IMG/VR virus record: IMGVR_UViG_3300009506_000147
Location: 1 to 28,786 of that record
Length of the DNA: 28,786 bases
Reading direction: 5' to 3' (one strand)
DNA from: a virus
Below are positions 10,840-17,637 of this stretch, in pieces; positions within the stretch are counted from its first letter, which is position 1; the number at the start of each line of letters is the position of its first letter. A model generated the notes under the pieces. It made no database searches and was not told the DNA's origin. It saw nothing but the letters and a program-made list of their open reading frames with translations. The position numbers and the translations under genes were made by a program.

Positions 10840-10867
10840 CAGAAACAAAGGAAGGGAATTGCACGAA

Positions 10868-11920
10868 ATGAAATCTTTACTCGTAGCCGTAATGGTACTG
10901 TTGGTTGGTACGGTCAATGCGTTCGCTGTGGATACAAGCGACTTGACCAATCTCCTACAAGACATTTCTGTAACAATCAAATCAGGCACGTCGTACAGTA
11001 AGGCAGAAGGTTCAGGAGTGATAGTCACTCGACAAGTTTGTACAGACGTGGCAAAAAAGAAGATGGAAACAATCAATTTCGTTTGGACTGCCGGTCACGT
11101 AATTGATAACCTGCGTAGCGTAAGAACGGTAATCGACCCCAAGACTGGCACAGAACGTAAGAAGATTGAATTCAAAGACGCCCAGATAGTGAAAGAATTG
11201 GTTGAGAATGGGCGACGAGTTGGTGAACTCAAGATGGACTGCAAAGTTCTCAAGTTTTCCGACTCAGAAAACGGCGAAGACTTAGCTCTCCTCATGGTCC
11301 GCAAGCGTAATTTCATCTCCAGCGGTGCTTCCGCAACATTCTTCCTCGACAAAAACGAACTTGGTGACATTAAGGTAGTACCTATTGGTACAAGATTGTA
11401 CCACGTAGGTTCACTATTAGGCCAAATGGGAAGTAATTCAATGACTTCAGGCATAATGTCACAAGTAGGCCGAGTCCTAGAATTAGGCAGCGGTGATGGT
11501 GTAGTCTTCGACCAAACCACAGTCGCCGCATTCCCTGGAAGTTCCGGTGGGGGGGTCTTTCTAACCGAAAGTTCAGGTAAAGAAGCGGGTCAATACGTAG
11601 GAATGCTTGTTCGTGGTGCAGGTGAATCTTTCAACCTGATCGTTCCCGTGCGTCGTATGTATGTATGGGCACAGAAAGGTAACGTTGCTTGGGCTATGGA
11701 TAATAGCAAAGTTCCAACGTTGGAAGAGATTCTCAAAATGCCTATTGAAAATGCTACCATTCGATCTTCGGCTGCTGAAAAGGCCGGTCAGAAGAAAACT
11801 GAAGATTCAATCAATTTCCCAACCCTCATTCAAAAACAACGCTTGGCACCGGTTCCCATGCCAGAGATTGACTTTGGCAAGTTGGATACGGTGAATCCGT
11901 GTAGTTGGAAGGGTAACTAA
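10868..11920 (+). CDS. Secreted trypsin-like serine protease
   Basis: The 350-residue product starts at ATG 10868 (GGAAGGGA upstream; TTG 10859 is an alternative). Residues 1-20 are a textbook Sec signal peptide (MKSLLVAVMVLLVGTVNAFA), probably cut before VD. The trypsin-like triad is H77 in VWTAGHVID, D138 in NGEDLALLMV and S226 in FPGSSGGGVFL. The C-terminal 70 residues are a polar, Pro-containing tail without a PDZ domain. It is the second protease of this fold within 1.5 kb and shares little sequence with the first, so this is not a recent duplication. It would act in the periplasm or outside. Confidence 0.85.
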   Translation: MKSLLVAVMVLLVGTVNAFAVDTSDLTNLLQDISVTIKSGTSYSKAEGSGVIVTRQVCTDVAKKKMETINFVWTAGHVIDNLRSVRTVIDPKTGTERKKIEFKDAQIVKELVENGRRVGELKMDCKVLKFSDSENGEDLALLMVRKRNFISSGASATFFLDKNELGDIKVVPIGTRLYHVGSLLGQMGSNSMTSGIMSQVGRVLELGSGDGVVFDQTTVAAFPGSSGGGVFLTESSGKEAGQYVGMLVRGAGESFNLIVPVRRMYVWAQKGNVAWAMDNSKVPTLEEILKMPIENATIRSSAAEKAGQKKTEDSINFPTLIQKQRLAPVPMPEIDFGKLDTVNPCSWKGN

Positions 11921-12432: not shown

Positions 12433-12638
12433 TGCAGAGTACAATAGATCAGCAATTGTTCGATGACTTCATGCAGGCTTTCTATATTGACCCGTCTTTG
12501 ACTTCGGAATACGCCAAGCATAATTGTCGTCGATGTAAGGGGGTTGGAAGATGGATGTCGGACGATCCCACTACCAGACGCAAACAACTAATCATTTGCG
12601 AATGCGTTAAAAAGGCAGTTAGGACTACACTAGCATGA
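12432..12638 (+). CDS. Small zinc-finger-like protein
   Basis: The 68-residue product overlaps the previous stop (TAATG). It has a CRRCKGVGRW motif (about residues 32-41), like a DnaJ CxxCxGxG half-finger, completed by CEC at about 56-58, so one zinc site is likely. The rest is helical with a basic end. The ATG of the dCMP deaminase overlaps its TGA. It may be a partner of the next enzyme; otherwise unknown. Confidence 0.6.
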   Translation: MQSTIDQQLFDDFMQAFYIDPSLTSEYAKHNCRRCKGVGRWMSDDPTTRRKQLIICECVKKAVRTTLA

Positions 12639-13288
12639 AAAATGGTTTAGGGATCAGGATTCAACCACGAGTTGGTAAAGATCAAGTTGACAAAACTATC
12701 GTCACCCTCAAGAAATGGGAACTCAAACATAGAGAATCATTCAGGCCAAGTTGGGTTGACTATTTCATTGCAATGGCGTTTATCGCTCGTACTCGATCAC
12801 ACGATGCTGAAACTCAACACGGTTGTGTCATCACTGATAGCAACCACAGGGTATTAGGAGTGGGATATAACGGATTTCCCCGTGCGTGTGACCCAATGGT
12901 AGAGTCATGTCTACCAAACATCAGACCTGAAAAATATCCGTGGATGTTGCATTCAGAACACAATGCCTGTGTCAATTGCTCATTGACTCCATACAAGGGT
13001 ATTGCCCATGTAACGGGCTGGCCTTGTAATGGTTGTGTCATGACAATGTGGCAACACGGAGTAGAAACAGTACACGCTTTGGGTACACAGGAATCTGCGA
13101 AGTGGCAAAACGAAAGTGAAGAGGAAATCAGACTGACGTTTCTGGCAGCAACGGGGATGGAAATAAACTACTACCACATAGATGCTCTACCCTTAACCAA
13201 ACTTGTCAGAGACTTGCTTGATGAAAACATTGATATGCTCAACGCTTCTGTTAATCTGTTGCCTATTGGGTTACCTGACCCTAGCTAA
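12635..13288 (+). CDS. dCMP deaminase
   Basis: It deaminates dCMP to dUMP, the substrate of ThyX. The zinc and catalytic motifs are clear: H106-S-E108 (HSEHNAC) and P130-C131-x-x-C134 (PCNGCVM), plus the upstream HGCVITDSNHRVLGVGYNG strand and FPRACD typical of the deoxycytidylate branch. At 217 residues it is longer than the usual 150-190, because of about 35 extra N-terminal residues and a C-terminal extension. ATGA overlap with the previous gene. The last 68 nt overlap the start of the thioredoxin-like gene. Confidence 0.92.
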   Translation: MKNGLGIRIQPRVGKDQVDKTIVTLKKWELKHRESFRPSWVDYFIAMAFIARTRSHDAETQHGCVITDSNHRVLGVGYNGFPRACDPMVESCLPNIRPEKYPWMLHSEHNACVNCSLTPYKGIAHVTGWPCNGCVMTMWQHGVETVHALGTQESAKWQNESEEEIRLTFLAATGMEINYYHIDALPLTKLVRDLLDENIDMLNASVNLLPIGLPDPS

Positions 13289-13658
13289 ACAGAATACAAA
13301 CGAGTGCTATACCTTAATTCCACACGTTGATGACTCGACGATTACGGCTGCTGACAAGCCTAACCGAGTTTTGGATTTTACTGCTGATTGGTGCTATTGG
13401 TGCCAACTGATGGATCGTAAGGTATGGCCAAATCAAACAGTCAAGAATGCCTTGCTTAATTACAAAGGTAAGAAACGTGAAGTGTTTGACATAAACACTG
13501 ATGTGGGCAAGGCGGCAGCAAAATTCTATGACGTAAGAGCGTTACCAACAGTCATCATTGTAACTCACGACGGTAAGGAAATCTTCCGTAGGGTGGGATA
13601 CACTGGTGTGAAAACGCTGTCAGACATGCTGAACAAATACAAGGATACAAGACGCTGA
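13221..13658 (+). CDS. Membrane-anchored thioredoxin-fold protein
   Basis: From ATG 13221 the product is 145 residues: a hydrophobic Cys-rich leader (residues 2-22, KTLICSTLLLICCLLGYLTL) and then a thioredoxin fold with the redox motif W57-C58-Y-W-C61 in FTADWCYWCQLMD and the cis-proline loop RALPT (P109). This fits DsbD-C/thioredoxin_7-type proteins acting outside the cytoplasm. It would reduce or shuffle disulfides, possibly in the Cys-rich protease at 9403. A cytoplasmic partner role with ribonucleotide reductase is less likely because of the leader. The whole leader is encoded within the end of the deaminase gene in another frame. Confidence 0.82.
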   Translation: MKTLICSTLLLICCLLGYLTLAKQNTNECYTLIPHVDDSTITAADKPNRVLDFTADWCYWCQLMDRKVWPNQTVKNALLNYKGKKREVFDINTDVGKAAAKFYDVRALPTVIIVTHDGKEIFRRVGYTGVKTLSDMLNKYKDTRR

Positions 13659-13952
13659 GGCTTAAAGACGACGTAGCAGTTCCTGATGGACAAGACTACT
13701 CCCGTAAAGCGACACATCCTCAGCAAGCAAACCGTCGCGACGTAGACATTCGCGTGTGTCGCTTTGAAAATCCCAGGGTCCGTATCTGTACGCAGTGCGG
13801 ACCCTTTTTTCTATCATACTAGAACCATCATGAAATTCTCCGGTTCTAGGACGTGTCCTAAACTTGTATGGTCTAGACGCTATACACCATACGGAACAAA
13901 AGAAGCATACCCTGCCTGTTACTGCACCCTTACATGCGATAAGGATTGTGAT
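13654..13952 (+). ncRNA. Structured RNA region, possibly pseudoknotted
   Basis: This stretch has no convincing gene but many perfect inverted repeats. These are GCTGAGG/CCTCAGC (13654-13660/13718-13724); AAAGCGACACA/TGTGTCGCTTT (13706-13716/13755-13765), which crosses the first; CGCG/CGCG (13736-13739/13751-13754); the terminator at 13775-13810; CTAGAACC/GGTTCTAG (13819-13826/13842-13849); TAGGAC/GTCCTA (13847-13852/13855-13860), which competes with the previous one; and GTATGGT/ACCATAC (13866-13872/13886-13892). The only ORF inside is a 19-codon frame at 13686-13745 without a ribosome site. Up to 13810 it could be a small RNA; the rest would be a leader for the downstream operon. Confidence 0.5.
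13775..13810 (+). terminator. Rho-independent terminator
   Basis: AGGGTCCG (13775-13782) pairs with CGGACCCT (13798-13805). The stem continues TA/TG inward and then, after a bulged T, CTG-TACG-CAG (13786-13795). The T run 13805-13810 follows. It ends the deaminase/thioredoxin transcript or the putative small RNA. Confidence 0.9.
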
Positions 13953-14342
13953 ATGAAACCGCCACCTATCGGATGGACTACTCCAGTCCAAATAGACCGT
14001 GAAGGGGACGCAGACACTCTCACTATATCTGTCAGTCGTAAACTAATCATTCGACTGGTCGACGAACAACTCTGTTTCGATGCTCCTGAAACTTACAGAC
14101 CTCGATCTGAGGCAGAAAGAGAACATGGCAAAAAGGCAACCAAATTCTTACACTCCCTACTGTTTCGACCCGATGGCACTCCTCGTGATTTAGTCCTTCA
14201 CATTCCTGGTGATCCTGATGGGAAGATTGCGAAGACGATAGCTATAGGTGGTCGGTTTGTAGGAATGCTTTTTGCTGATGGTATTGACGTAGTAGAAGAA
14301 CTCAAGAAGAATGGTTTCATTAAGCGTGATAATTATGAGTGA
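13953..14342 (+). CDS. Staphylococcal-nuclease-like (SNase fold) protein
   Basis: From ATG 13953 (AAGGAT 6-12 nt upstream) the product is 129 residues. The order of the SNase beta barrel is visible: VQIDREGDADTLTISV (12-27), LIIRLVDEQLCFDAPET (31-47) with R34 and E46 in the places of Arg35 and Glu43 of the S. aureus enzyme, and then DPDGKIAKTIAI (87-98), where the usual YGR Arg87 equivalent is Lys. VEELKKNGFIKRDNY is the expected end. It may be a weak or inactive nuclease, or use Lys. An earlier ATG (13830) would add 41 Cys-rich residues but has no ribosome site and lies inside a hairpin loop. Confidence 0.68.
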   Translation: MKPPPIGWTTPVQIDREGDADTLTISVSRKLIIRLVDEQLCFDAPETYRPRSEAEREHGKKATKFLHSLLFRPDGTPRDLVLHIPGDPDGKIAKTIAIGGRFVGMLFADGIDVVEELKKNGFIKRDNYE

Positions 14343-14508
14343 AGAAAAACCTTTTGGGATTACTTGTTGGATACGTAACTTCAATGGCAAGCCCATCAAA
14401 AGGGTCAGTGGGGATTTTGCGTCTGGATACGAGCTATGGAAGTTCTGGATCAAGAATACATCTTCTCCTGTCCCTAAGAAAAAGAAGAACAACAAGAAAT
14501 CCAAATGA
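14335..14508 (+). CDS. Small protein with Lys-rich tail
   Basis: ATG 14335 overlaps the previous stop by 8 nt, and the TGA overlaps the nrdJ ATG (ATGA), so all three are probably co-translated. The 57-residue product ends in a nearly all-Lys/Asn tail (KKKKNNKKSK). The body (GITCWIRNFNGKPIKRVSGDFASGYELWKFW) may be a short beta hairpin. No family is recognised; the tail suggests binding to nucleic acid. Confidence 0.5.
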   Translation: MSEEKPFGITCWIRNFNGKPIKRVSGDFASGYELWKFWIKNTSSPVPKKKKNNKKSK

Positions 14509-16958
14509 CTGTTTATACCTATGATGAAGCCTTAGAAGCGTCTGTTGACTACTTCAATGGTAACAGATTTGCTGCCAAGATTTTTGTAGATAAGTATGCC
14601 CTAAGAAATACTGAAGATCAAATTCTCGAAGCGACTCCCGACGCCATGCATCGACGCATAGCTAATGAGTTTGCCAGAATTGAACTTGGTAAGGCACAAC
14701 TAGGTCTTTTTCATTTGGATGTTGAAGAAATATATGACATGTTGAAGGAGTTTGGTAAGCTGATTCCACAAGGATCACCCCTCTATGGAATCGGAAACCA
14801 ACATCAATACGTCACACTTTCAAACTGCTACGCACTAGAACCACCAGTCGACAGTTACGGTGGTATCCACTTCACAGACGAACAAATCACTCAAGTCTCT
14901 AAACGTAGGGGTGGTACTGGCATTGATCTTTCTCACCTACGACCAGCCGGTACAGCTACACACAACTCCTCACGCACTAGTACGGGAATGCTCTCGTGGA
15001 TGGATCGCTACTCCCATTCTGCACGAGAGGTAGGTCAACATGGTCGGCGTGGTGCTCTCATGCTGACACTCAACGTACATCACCCCCAAATTCTAGACTT
15101 CATTCATTCCAAAGACGATGGTAAGAGTATTACCGGAGCTAACATCAGTGTCAAACTCACCGATGAATTCCTTGAAGCTGTCAAACACAATCAAGAGTAT
15201 GAACAACGTTGGCCTATAGATTCTGATACTCCTGTCATATCTCACATGGTAAATGCCAAAGAGATATGGAATGAAATTGTAAAGAGTGCATGGTTTAGGG
15301 CTGAACCCGGCGTGCTCTTTTGGGATCACACGTTACGGGAAAGTCCTGCCGATTGCTACGCAGACTTTGGTTTTCGTACCGTTAGTCCTAATCCATGCTC
15401 AGAAATTCTTCTCTCTGCCAATGATGCCTGCCGTCTACTTGCCATCAACCTTTTCTCCTGTGTCATTAAACCATTCGAAGGTGGTGCGTTTTTCGATTTC
15501 GACATGCTATATCAGCTAGCATACAACGCACAGATTTTGATGGATGATTTAGTAGACCTTGAACTGGAATGTATAGACAGGTTATTGACAAAGATTGAAG
15601 GTGATCCCGAACCTGCAATCATCAAGGAACGTGAACTTTATCTATGGCAGCAGGTTCAAGAGAAGACTCGTCAGGGACGCCGTACTGGCACGGGGATTAC
15701 CGCTTTGGCCGATGCGATGGCTGCCATTGGTATCACCTATGGCTCACGTAAGAGTTTGTATTTTGTAGAGAAAGTGTACCGCACGCTTAAAAATGGAGCG
15801 TACAGGGCGTCCGTTGATCTAGCCAAGTCGCTAGGACCGTTTCCTATATGGGACAAAAACCTCGAAAAAAATAATTCGTACCTTCTACGTCTGAAAAAAG
15901 ACTTCCCTGAAACGTGGGAAGACATGCAGAAATATGGACGGCGGAACATCGCTCTCCTGACAACCTCTCCAGGTGGGACAATAAGTAATCTGGCTAAGAT
16001 AGGTCCATATTTTGGAACTTCTTCCGGCATTGAACCGGTCTATCAGACTAGTTTTGTACGTCGCAAGAAAGGTAATCCTGGCGACAAAGATTTTCGTACC
16101 GATTTTATTGATCCTTCTGGTGATCATTGGATGGAATTTGAGGTCTATCATTCAGGGTTGAAATTATGGATGGATACAGTAGGTGAATCAGATTCGTTAA
16201 CTCCTGAACAACTGCCTTATCACAATGCTTGTGCTTATGACATAGACTGGAAAGCACGTGTCAATATACAAGCCACTGCCCAAAAACATATCGACCACGG
16301 CATATCCTCAACTATAAATCTACCAGAAGACATAGAACTAGAAACTGTAGACAAATTGTACAGACAGGCTATGAAGAGTGGTGTCAAAGGTATCACGGTC
16401 TACAGACAGAATTGTCGTACAGGAGTTTTGATTGATCCTAGTTCGATTCAGCATCATACTGCACCGCAAAGACCAAAAGAACTACCATGCGACGTGTATC
16501 ATATAACAGTACGTGGTACACCATATTTTGTACTCGTTGGTATGTACAAAGGTGAACCGTATGAGGTATTCTGTGGAAGAAATGGAAATGTTGGCAAGGG
16601 AGTAAAGAACGGTACAATTATCAAGATGGGGCGTCCAAAGCAGTACAAAGCCATCTTCGAAGACGGTAGTGAATTGTGCCCGATCACGTTGGCCTGTACA
16701 GATGAAGAGGAAGTGGTCACCCGATTGGCTTCACTGAACCTGCGTGGTGGTGTATCTATGCACCAGATTGTTCAACAGCTAGAAAAAACACAGGGAGACT
16801 TGACCAGCTTCTCGAAGAGTATCACACGAGCGTTGAAGAAATATATTCCTGACGGTACTCATGAAAAAGGAAAATGCCCACAGTGTCATTCCGAATCTCT
16901 TGTCAGGGAAGCAGGTTGCATGGTTTGCAAATCCTGTACTTGGTCGGCGTGCAGCTAA
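14505..16958 (+). CDS. nrdJ: Class II (adenosylcobalamin-dependent) ribonucleotide reductase
   Basis: It reduces ribonucleotides to deoxyribonucleotides using a B12-generated thiyl radical, so it works without a second subunit or oxygen. Key parts seen: SNCY with redox C108; GGTGIDLSHLRPAGT (136-150); N296-P-C298-S-E300, the active-site NPCxE with the radical Cys; DACRLLAINLFS (307-318) with the partner Cys C309; TGTGITALADAMA; and SPGGTISNLAKIGPYFGTSSGIEP, the substrate phosphate loop. A C-terminal zinc ribbon carries CPQC (791-794) and GCMVCKSC (804-811), ending in TWSACS, as in NrdJ proteins where the tail shuttles reducing power. At 817 residues it has no intein. It needs host cobalamin. 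Confidence 0.95.
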   Translation: MTVYTYDEALEASVDYFNGNRFAAKIFVDKYALRNTEDQILEATPDAMHRRIANEFARIELGKAQLGLFHLDVEEIYDMLKEFGKLIPQGSPLYGIGNQHQYVTLSNCYALEPPVDSYGGIHFTDEQITQVSKRRGGTGIDLSHLRPAGTATHNSSRTSTGMLSWMDRYSHSAREVGQHGRRGALMLTLNVHHPQILDFIHSKDDGKSITGANISVKLTDEFLEAVKHNQEYEQRWPIDSDTPVISHMVNAKEIWNEIVKSAWFRAEPGVLFWDHTLRESPADCYADFGFRTVSPNPCSEILLSANDACRLLAINLFSCVIKPFEGGAFFDFDMLYQLAYNAQILMDDLVDLELECIDRLLTKIEGDPEPAIIKERELYLWQQVQEKTRQGRRTGTGITALADAMAAIGITYGSRKSLYFVEKVYRTLKNGAYRASVDLAKSLGPFPIWDKNLEKNNSYLLRLKKDFPETWEDMQKYGRRNIALLTTSPGGTISNLAKIGPYFGTSSGIEPVYQTSFVRRKKGNPGDKDFRTDFIDPSGDHWMEFEVYHSGLKLWMDTVGESDSLTPEQLPYHNACAYDIDWKARVNIQATAQKHIDHGISSTINLPEDIELETVDKLYRQAMKSGVKGITVYRQNCRTGVLIDPSSIQHHTAPQRPKELPCDVYHITVRGTPYFVLVGMYKGEPYEVFCGRNGNVGKGVKNGTIIKMGRPKQYKAIFEDGSELCPITLACTDEEEVVTRLASLNLRGGVSMHQIVQQLEKTQGDLTSFSKSITRALKKYIPDGTHEKGKCPQCHSESLVREAGCMVCKSCTWSACS

Positions 16959-16974
16959 AATTCCAAAATTTTAC

Positions 16975-17003
16975 TTGACTTTTGCCTTTCGATGTAGTAG
17001 AAT
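16975..17003 (+). promoter_or_regulatory. Sigma-70 promoter of the HNH gene
   Basis: TTGACT (16975-16980), a 17-bp spacer and TAGAAT (16998-17003) match 10 of 12 consensus positions. The start would be near 17010, 28 nt before ATG 17038. The sequence before the -35 box (TTTTACTTGAC) resembles that at the tRNA promoter (TTTTCTACTTGAC). Confidence 0.88.
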
Positions 17004-17037
17004 AAGTAGGAAAACCTCTTTCACAGAAAGGCGATCC

Positions 17038-17637
17038 ATGACCGTACCTGTACATTTGCGTACCCTCGTGTTGAACAGCGATTACATTCCTTTGAGCATT
17101 GTTCACTGGAAGAAGGCTGCCAAGAGGGTTTTTGGAGACGATCCACCAGTTGTTGTGGAATACTACGACGTGTCTTTCAAGGACACCAAGGGTAGGGAAT
17201 ACTACGTCCCTGCCATTGTGGCCAATTCCACTCATGTCAAGAGGAATTACAAGAAGGTATCTTTCTCTCGCAAGAACATTCTCAAGAGGGATGGTTACCG
17301 CTGTCAATACTGTACGGAAAAGTTCAAGGCTAACGAACTTACTATTGACCACGTTGTTCCTCGATCAATGTGGACTGGTACTGACACCCCAACCTGTTGG
17401 CATAATCTTGTTGCCTGCTGTTACGCTTGTAACAACAAAAAGAGGAACCGTACTCCTGAGCAGGCCAACATGCCATTGAAGAAGGTTGTAAATGGTGTTG
17501 TAGTACCATACAACAGACCTAAGAGACCGAATTACGTTGATTTGGTCCTGGGTGCTTCAGGTGTAAGCATTGACAATCTACCAGCAGAATGGCATCCATA
17601 CTTCGATCATATCTTGTCAAAGGAATTGAGAATTTGA
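17038..17637 (+). CDS. HNH endonuclease
   Basis: The 199-residue product starts at ATG 17038 with AAAGG 6 nt upstream. The HNH core spans residues about 82-137: RDGYRCQYC with the first zinc pair C89/C92, TIDHVVPRS with catalytic D104-H105, H122-N123 in WHNLVACC, and the second zinc pair C128/C131. The N-terminal part (LRTLVLNSDYIPLSIVHWKKAAKRVF) is the usual partner domain of a large bacterial HNH group. It cuts DNA. Having its own promoter and lying between nrdJ and unrelated small genes, it looks like an independently acquired unit, homing or anti-competitor in role, though a packaging or repair role is possible. Confidence 0.9.
   Translation: MTVPVHLRTLVLNSDYIPLSIVHWKKAAKRVFGDDPPVVVEYYDVSFKDTKGREYYVPAIVANSTHVKRNYKKVSFSRKNILKRDGYRCQYCTEKFKANELTIDHVVPRSMWTGTDTPTCWHNLVACCYACNNKKRNRTPEQANMPLKKVVNGVVVPYNRPKRPNYVDLVLGASGVSIDNLPAEWHPYFDHILSKELRI

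Follow-up and report, generated by a model that had tools for sequence, protein, structure and literature searches.

A conserved pseudoknot RNA, probably a cis-acting leader, ahead of class II ribonucleotide reductase genes of phages

The window analysed here is a stretch of 28,786 nt of virus DNA (IMG/VR record IMGVR_UViG_3300009506_000147). On its plus strand, a dCMP/cytidine deaminase gene (12635..13288) is followed by a thioredoxin-like gene (13293..13658; PF13098/PF00085), a structured RNA, an SNase-like gene (13953..14342), a small basic ORF (14335..14508) and nrdJ (14505..16958). NrdJ is an adenosylcobalamin-dependent ribonucleoside-diphosphate reductase that matched TIGR02504 above the cut-off and also PF02867. 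The first gene 3′ of the RNA, SNase, starts at ATG 13953 behind the SD sequence AAGGA; N-terminal extensions from TTG 13764 or ATG 13828 were rejected for low codon score and lack of an SD. Its protein has no Pfam match of its own and is related to the SNase that the relative L170 has in this position (score 158 vs a shuffled maximum of 46), which matches PF00565. An HNH endonuclease-like ORF (16861-17637) lies over the end of nrdJ in a different frame, and HNH genes occur near the reductase in several relatives as well. Elsewhere in the window, a protein with a trypsin-like peptidase domain (PF13365) is encoded at 10859-11920, and ARAGORN located six scattered tRNA genes (378, 2984, 4262, 10172, 10380 and 10459; Met, Arg twice, Thr, Val and Glu), three of which also reach the threshold of Rfam.

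A preliminary description of this DNA had named six inverted repeats between the end of the thioredoxin-like gene and the SNase-like gene, and all of them are present: 13654-13660/13718-13724 (7 bp), 13706-13716/13755-13765 (11 bp), 13775-13782/13798-13805 (8 bp, a terminator stem followed by T6), 13819-13826/13842-13849 (8 bp), 13847-13852/13855-13860 (6 bp) and 13866-13875/13883-13892 (10 nt, 90%). The crossing of the first two is a true pseudoknot geometry, and the first arm does lie over the TGA (13656-13658) with which the thioredoxin-like ORF stops. The density of repeats, which had been read as a signal, proved ordinary: repeats of 6 bp or more with short spacing number 5 in the 299-nt stretch and average 4.4 ± 1.9 across the window, and 44% of the 300-nt windows of the contig hold as many. 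Segment 13690-13812 folds more strongly than shuffled sequence (z −4.0), and no such excess was found for 13640-13772 (z +0.3) or 13812-13953 (z −1.3). The evidence that raises the first half of this region above chance is comparative, rather than repeat density.

Positions 13654-13765 belong to an RNA family of at least 13 distinct phage sequences, which share a pseudoknot helix P1 of 7-8 bp, the motif TAAAGA, a helix P2 of 9-11 bp and a hairpin P4 within the P2 loop. In the window, the P1 5′ arm GCTGAGG (13654..13660) pairs with CCTCAGC (13718..13724); the relatives carry GTTGGAG, GTCGGGA, GTCGGAA, GTCGGGG, GTTGGGG, GTTGGGA or GTCGAGG instead, and the partner always matches. The joining motif TAAAGA (13663..13668) follows 2 nt 3′ of P1. 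It reads TAAAGA in 10 of the 13 distinct sequences and TAAATA in L113 and L170, and is degenerate in L109. Folding places a probable small hairpin, P3 (GTAG/CTAC), in the variable loop L1 (13669..13705) between TAAAGA and P2; this hairpin is plausible and weakly supported, not rising above shuffles. The P2 5′ arm AAAGCGACACA (13706..13716) pairs with TGTGTCGCTTT (13755..13765), and its variants in relatives (AAAGTAACAC, AAAGTGACAC, AGAGCGGCAC, AGAACGGCAC and GGGGCGACAC) have matching 3′ arms. In the window and in relatives the P1 3′ arm starts 1-3 nt past the P2 5′ arm, that is, inside the P2 loop, so that P1 and P2 cross in an H-type pseudoknot. P4 (CGCGA/TCGCG, 13736..13754) is present in a minimal form in the window. 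The duplex energies in the window are about −11.3 kcal/mol for P1 and −15.6 kcal/mol for P2, and the nested folds with P1 only (−49.6 kcal/mol) and P2 only (−48.5 kcal/mol) are nearly equal. With loops of 45, 1 and 30 nt, both helices should be able to form at once.

No near relative of the contig at the DNA level was present among phage records, and protein scans with the window SNase or thioredoxin found nothing. A NrdJ protein profile led to 80 loci. In L004, L013 and L079, whose NrdJ is 58% identical, the RNA architecture sits between the dCMP deaminase gene and the next gene, in the order GTTGGAG, CA, TAAAGA, AAAGCGACAC, CA, CTCCAAC, loop and GTGTCGCTT, followed by a different terminator. 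A scan with a 16-base P2 pattern gave mostly chance matches. When both arms of P2 were used as a pattern, with no protein involved, L089 and L097 proved true and the remaining matches mostly chance. In these two the RNA lies directly 5′ of a different class II reductase, and that reductase as a query gave 80 more loci, 13 of them with the RNA. Another protein-free scan, for TATAAT, P1 and TAAAGA, returned 40 stretches; those in which P1 and P2 pair completely all precede a reductase, and the others look like chance. Thus both protein-free scans found complete P1 and P2 structures only ahead of reductases. A pattern scan of prokaryote genomes, of limited sensitivity, gave 8 matches, none with P1 and P2, and a search of 398 genomes of one bacterial phylum, run without a positive control and likewise of limited sensitivity, gave no match. 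A match in Niastella was weak (31 bits, viewed by eye). The RNA is absent from the five cultured phages whose TIGR02505-like reductases are nearest. Its copy number, weak echoes aside, is one per contig in 11 phage contigs.

Compensating base changes in related phages, which the preliminary description had proposed to look for, are abundant in both the core and the full alignment. In the core alignment (13 distinct sequences, variable loops removed), P1 is 98.1% paired and P2 96.9%, percentages inflated by the fact that most rows came from a scan requiring pairing. Two-sided changes occur at 10 of the 18 P1 and P2 pairs of this alignment, and none of 500 shuffles reached the observed covariation. 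When the pairing partners were slid by 1-3 columns, pairing fell to 38-51%. In the full alignment, which was built without structure, 91.7% of the P4 cells are paired and 4 of 6 pairs show two-sided changes. A covariance model, R1, was built with L113 and L170 both held out, and recovered L170 at 2.3e-12 and L113 at 2.7e-9. The independent weight for covariation comes from these two matches, from L004, which was found by synteny before the structural filter, and from L109, which was missed by the scan and found by position.

A TATAAT element stands 5-9 nt 5′ of P1 in every member examined other than the window. It ends 8 nt short of P1 in L170 and 9 nt short in L004, against 5 nt in 10 of the 13 sequences examined, which places the expected mRNA start of these relatives on the P1 5′ arm or no more than a few nt away. 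The window has no TATAAT there because its thioredoxin gene runs into P1, and its RNA is therefore probably transcribed from further upstream. At the other end, the terminator reported to close the first part of the region is present at 13775..13811, with an 8-bp stem AGGGTCCG/CGGACCCT and a T6 tail. A U-tract or terminator lies 3′ of P2 in 12 of the 13 distinct sequences: a U-tract follows P2 in 8, and a separate terminator or terminator-like hairpin in 4 (the window, L004, L113 and L172). The window P2 has no U-tract behind it. L004 and L113 have a terminator of different sequence at the same place as the window, in L172 a terminator-like hairpin with T4 lies further along, and L098 has no terminator after P2. 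Between the terminator and the SNase ATG, the window has a leader of 141 nt with three hairpins (13812..13952), which lies outside the conserved RNA. The hairpins at 13819-13892, earlier counted as part of the element, occur in no relative, and their folding is no better than chance. No conserved antiterminator was recognised in the family.

In the relatives measured, the start codon is 12-74 nt 3′ of P2, mostly 12-32 nt, a gap too short for another promoter in most of them. Five relatives without the RNA (L139, L143, L145, L151 and L152) have this TATAAT immediately 5′ of the reductase ATG, which indicates that this promoter serves the reductase. In these five, GTGTATAAT and a P1/TAAAGA-like remnant are found directly 5′ of the reductase and the RNA is absent; they are apparent deletion derivatives.

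Every member found, including those from the protein-free scans, precedes an adenosylcobalamin-dependent (class II) reductase of one of two families, both assigned as adenosylcobalamin-dependent by NCBIfam; TIGR02504 was matched above its cut-off, and TIGR02505 is a best match that falls below it. Many close reductase relatives have no RNA, which shows that it is dispensable. In a tree built for one reductase family, phages that carry the RNA fall into two groups set apart by phages that lack it, a pattern that implies repeated loss or transfer. The surrounding genes are partly shared. A deaminase gene is also 5′ of the RNA in L004, L089/L097, L113 and L170, and L170 has the order deaminase, RNA, SNase, small basic ORF and reductase, which is the window order minus the thioredoxin gene. 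Since the deaminase gene stands immediately 5′ of the RNA in L004, L113 and L170, with no thioredoxin-like gene between, the window thioredoxin-like gene looks inserted here, or lost elsewhere. No WCxxC thioredoxin-like gene adjoining the reductase was found in L002-L083. The small basic ORF has counterparts before the reductase in L170 (1837-1998) and L004 (3179-3514); these lysine-rich ORFs have a G(Y/F)..W motif, stand directly 5′ of class II reductases of both families and belong to no Pfam family. In L003 (3968-7546), about 330 intein-like residues interrupt the 1192-aa NrdJ after 'STNPC', and in L224 (Pseudaeromonas phage KLEP7) the reductase is annotated as two ORFs about 180 nt apart, possibly because of an intron or a break.

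The proposal that this is an undescribed structured RNA held up, in that no Rfam family matches and the pseudoknot is borne out by covariation. The window matched no family of Rfam 15 at the gathering score, and permissive scans of the window and relatives against all families gave chance-level matches at most. The nrdJ RNA motif (RF03034) is likewise a conserved RNA associated with nrdJ, the operon listed for it being nrdJ in Streptomyces lividans (PMC8079986). It differs from the RNA described here in having 80 positions and in its covariance model, which at E≤10 matched neither the window nor any of ten related phage contigs; the two are different RNAs. Cobalamin (AdoCbl) riboswitches (RF00174) share a connection with B12-dependent metabolism, as the reductases here require adenosylcobalamin. 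However, those 11 records gave no match to their model even at E≤10, while control genomes did match, and no B12 box was found for the RNA family. The glutamine (glnA) riboswitches known from marine phages such as Melnitz are also riboswitches within phage genomes (PMC9004378), but of another family with other genes, whereas the phage reductase RNA has no Rfam match. The T4/T2 gene 32 autoregulatory leader is alike in geometry, in that a phage DNA-metabolism mRNA has an H-type pseudoknot close to its 5′ end; in T4 it lies 67 nt 5′ of the start codon, nucleates gp32 binding and is perhaps the only viral pseudoknot used for translational autoregulation (PMC3014915). Unlike the phage reductase RNA, which has a U-tract or terminator behind it and an extra covarying hairpin, the gene 32 leader acts on translation and has a long A+U-rich protein-binding stretch. 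No description of the phage reductase leader RNA was found in open-licence literature. We rate it a new RNA family, of the kind of a cis-regulatory leader, possibly a riboswitch.

We consider it likely, on sequence comparison, that 13654-13811 is a member of this conserved phage RNA family and acts as a folded attenuator in cis, in the 5′ leader of class II reductase operons. It probably serves as an RNA switch or brake for the reductase gene set, one that had not been described before. Its position, the terminator and the single copy per contig favour a cis-acting leader that controls read-through, and the near-equal energies of the two nested folds are in line with it. Counting against this view are the failure to recognise a conserved antiterminator, the missing terminator of L098, the dispensability of the RNA, and, in the window, a P2 with a separate terminator in place of a U-tract and the 141 nt before the SNase start. 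The mRNA of the relatives, judged by the position of TATAAT, would begin at or near the P1 5′ arm, and the leader RNA may then attenuate transcription. A stabilised pseudoknot would let P2 with its U-tract, or the terminator behind P2, halt RNA polymerase; without such stabilisation, polymerase would continue into the reductase gene and, where present, the SNase gene and small ORF before it. With less confidence we infer that the leader responds to a small molecule linked with reductase activity, the first candidates being adenosylcobalamin or a deoxynucleotide. The cofactor is a candidate because both reductase families depend on it, but the coincidence is weak since both families occur in many phages. 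The link to cobalamin raised earlier loses its direct form, a B12-riboswitch match, and keeps an indirect one. Of the suggested regulatory element for the reductase operon, or phage small RNA with a leader, the link to the reductase operon stands and the hairpin leader at 13819-13892 does not. That the family is a new riboswitch class, so far confined to phages and sensing one of these candidates, with the first mRNA nucleotides forming the pseudoknot and P2 serving in most members as both sensor part and terminator stem, is a tentative proposal.

Other functions would account for part of these observations. A phage or reductase-related protein might bind the pseudoknot and repress translation or stabilise the mRNA, as in the gene 32 type of leader; the geometry, the place at the mRNA 5′ end ahead of a DNA-metabolism gene and the 12-32 nt from the P2 end to the start codon in most relatives agree with this. 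We regard it as unlikely, because the U-tract or terminator after P2 suggests control of transcription, and a conserved unpaired TAAAGA together with a covarying P4 exceeds a simple two-stem operator. A size of about 160 nt, with a promoter at the 5′ end and a terminator at the 3′ end of most members, would also suit a free-standing small RNA that acts in trans and is merely located before reductase genes. The strict linkage to reductases of two families, with no copies elsewhere in the phage contigs, makes this quite unlikely. So does the closeness of the ATG, which in most members leaves the gene dependent on the promoter of the RNA, and RNA-less relatives do use that promoter for the reductase. 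Still less probable is a purely structural role in which the pseudoknot senses nothing and shields the reductase transcript from decay that depends on the 5′ end. The expected transcript start, on the P1 5′ arm or close by, is in keeping with such a cap, which leaves the terminator, TAAAGA and P4 unexplained, and in the window the RNA comes after a coding gene.

We give hardly any credence to the reading that there is no RNA element, only chance repeats or a hidden small gene. Repeat density is indeed ordinary, and the −1 frame is open from CTG 13655, with an SD-like AAGGA 9 nt upstream. However, this frame was rejected as a gene because its codon score is lower than in any true coding stretch of the window, resembling that of open wrong frames, and no significant relatives of its peptide were found. 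Codon score and peptide comparison thus agree with the earlier statement that these approximately 300 nt hold no convincing gene. The compensatory changes across 12 other phage sequences, seen already in the core alignment, contradict this reading. The cis-acting attenuator leader remains the function that we favour.

Ribonucleotide reductase governs the supply of DNA building blocks in phage replication, and class II reductases need a cofactor that the phage must obtain from its host. The RNA family is compact and easily testable, and few phage riboswitches were described in the literature that we found. That two distinct reductase families have a conserved RNA control element in common suggests sensing of a metabolic state by phages before they commit to DNA synthesis.
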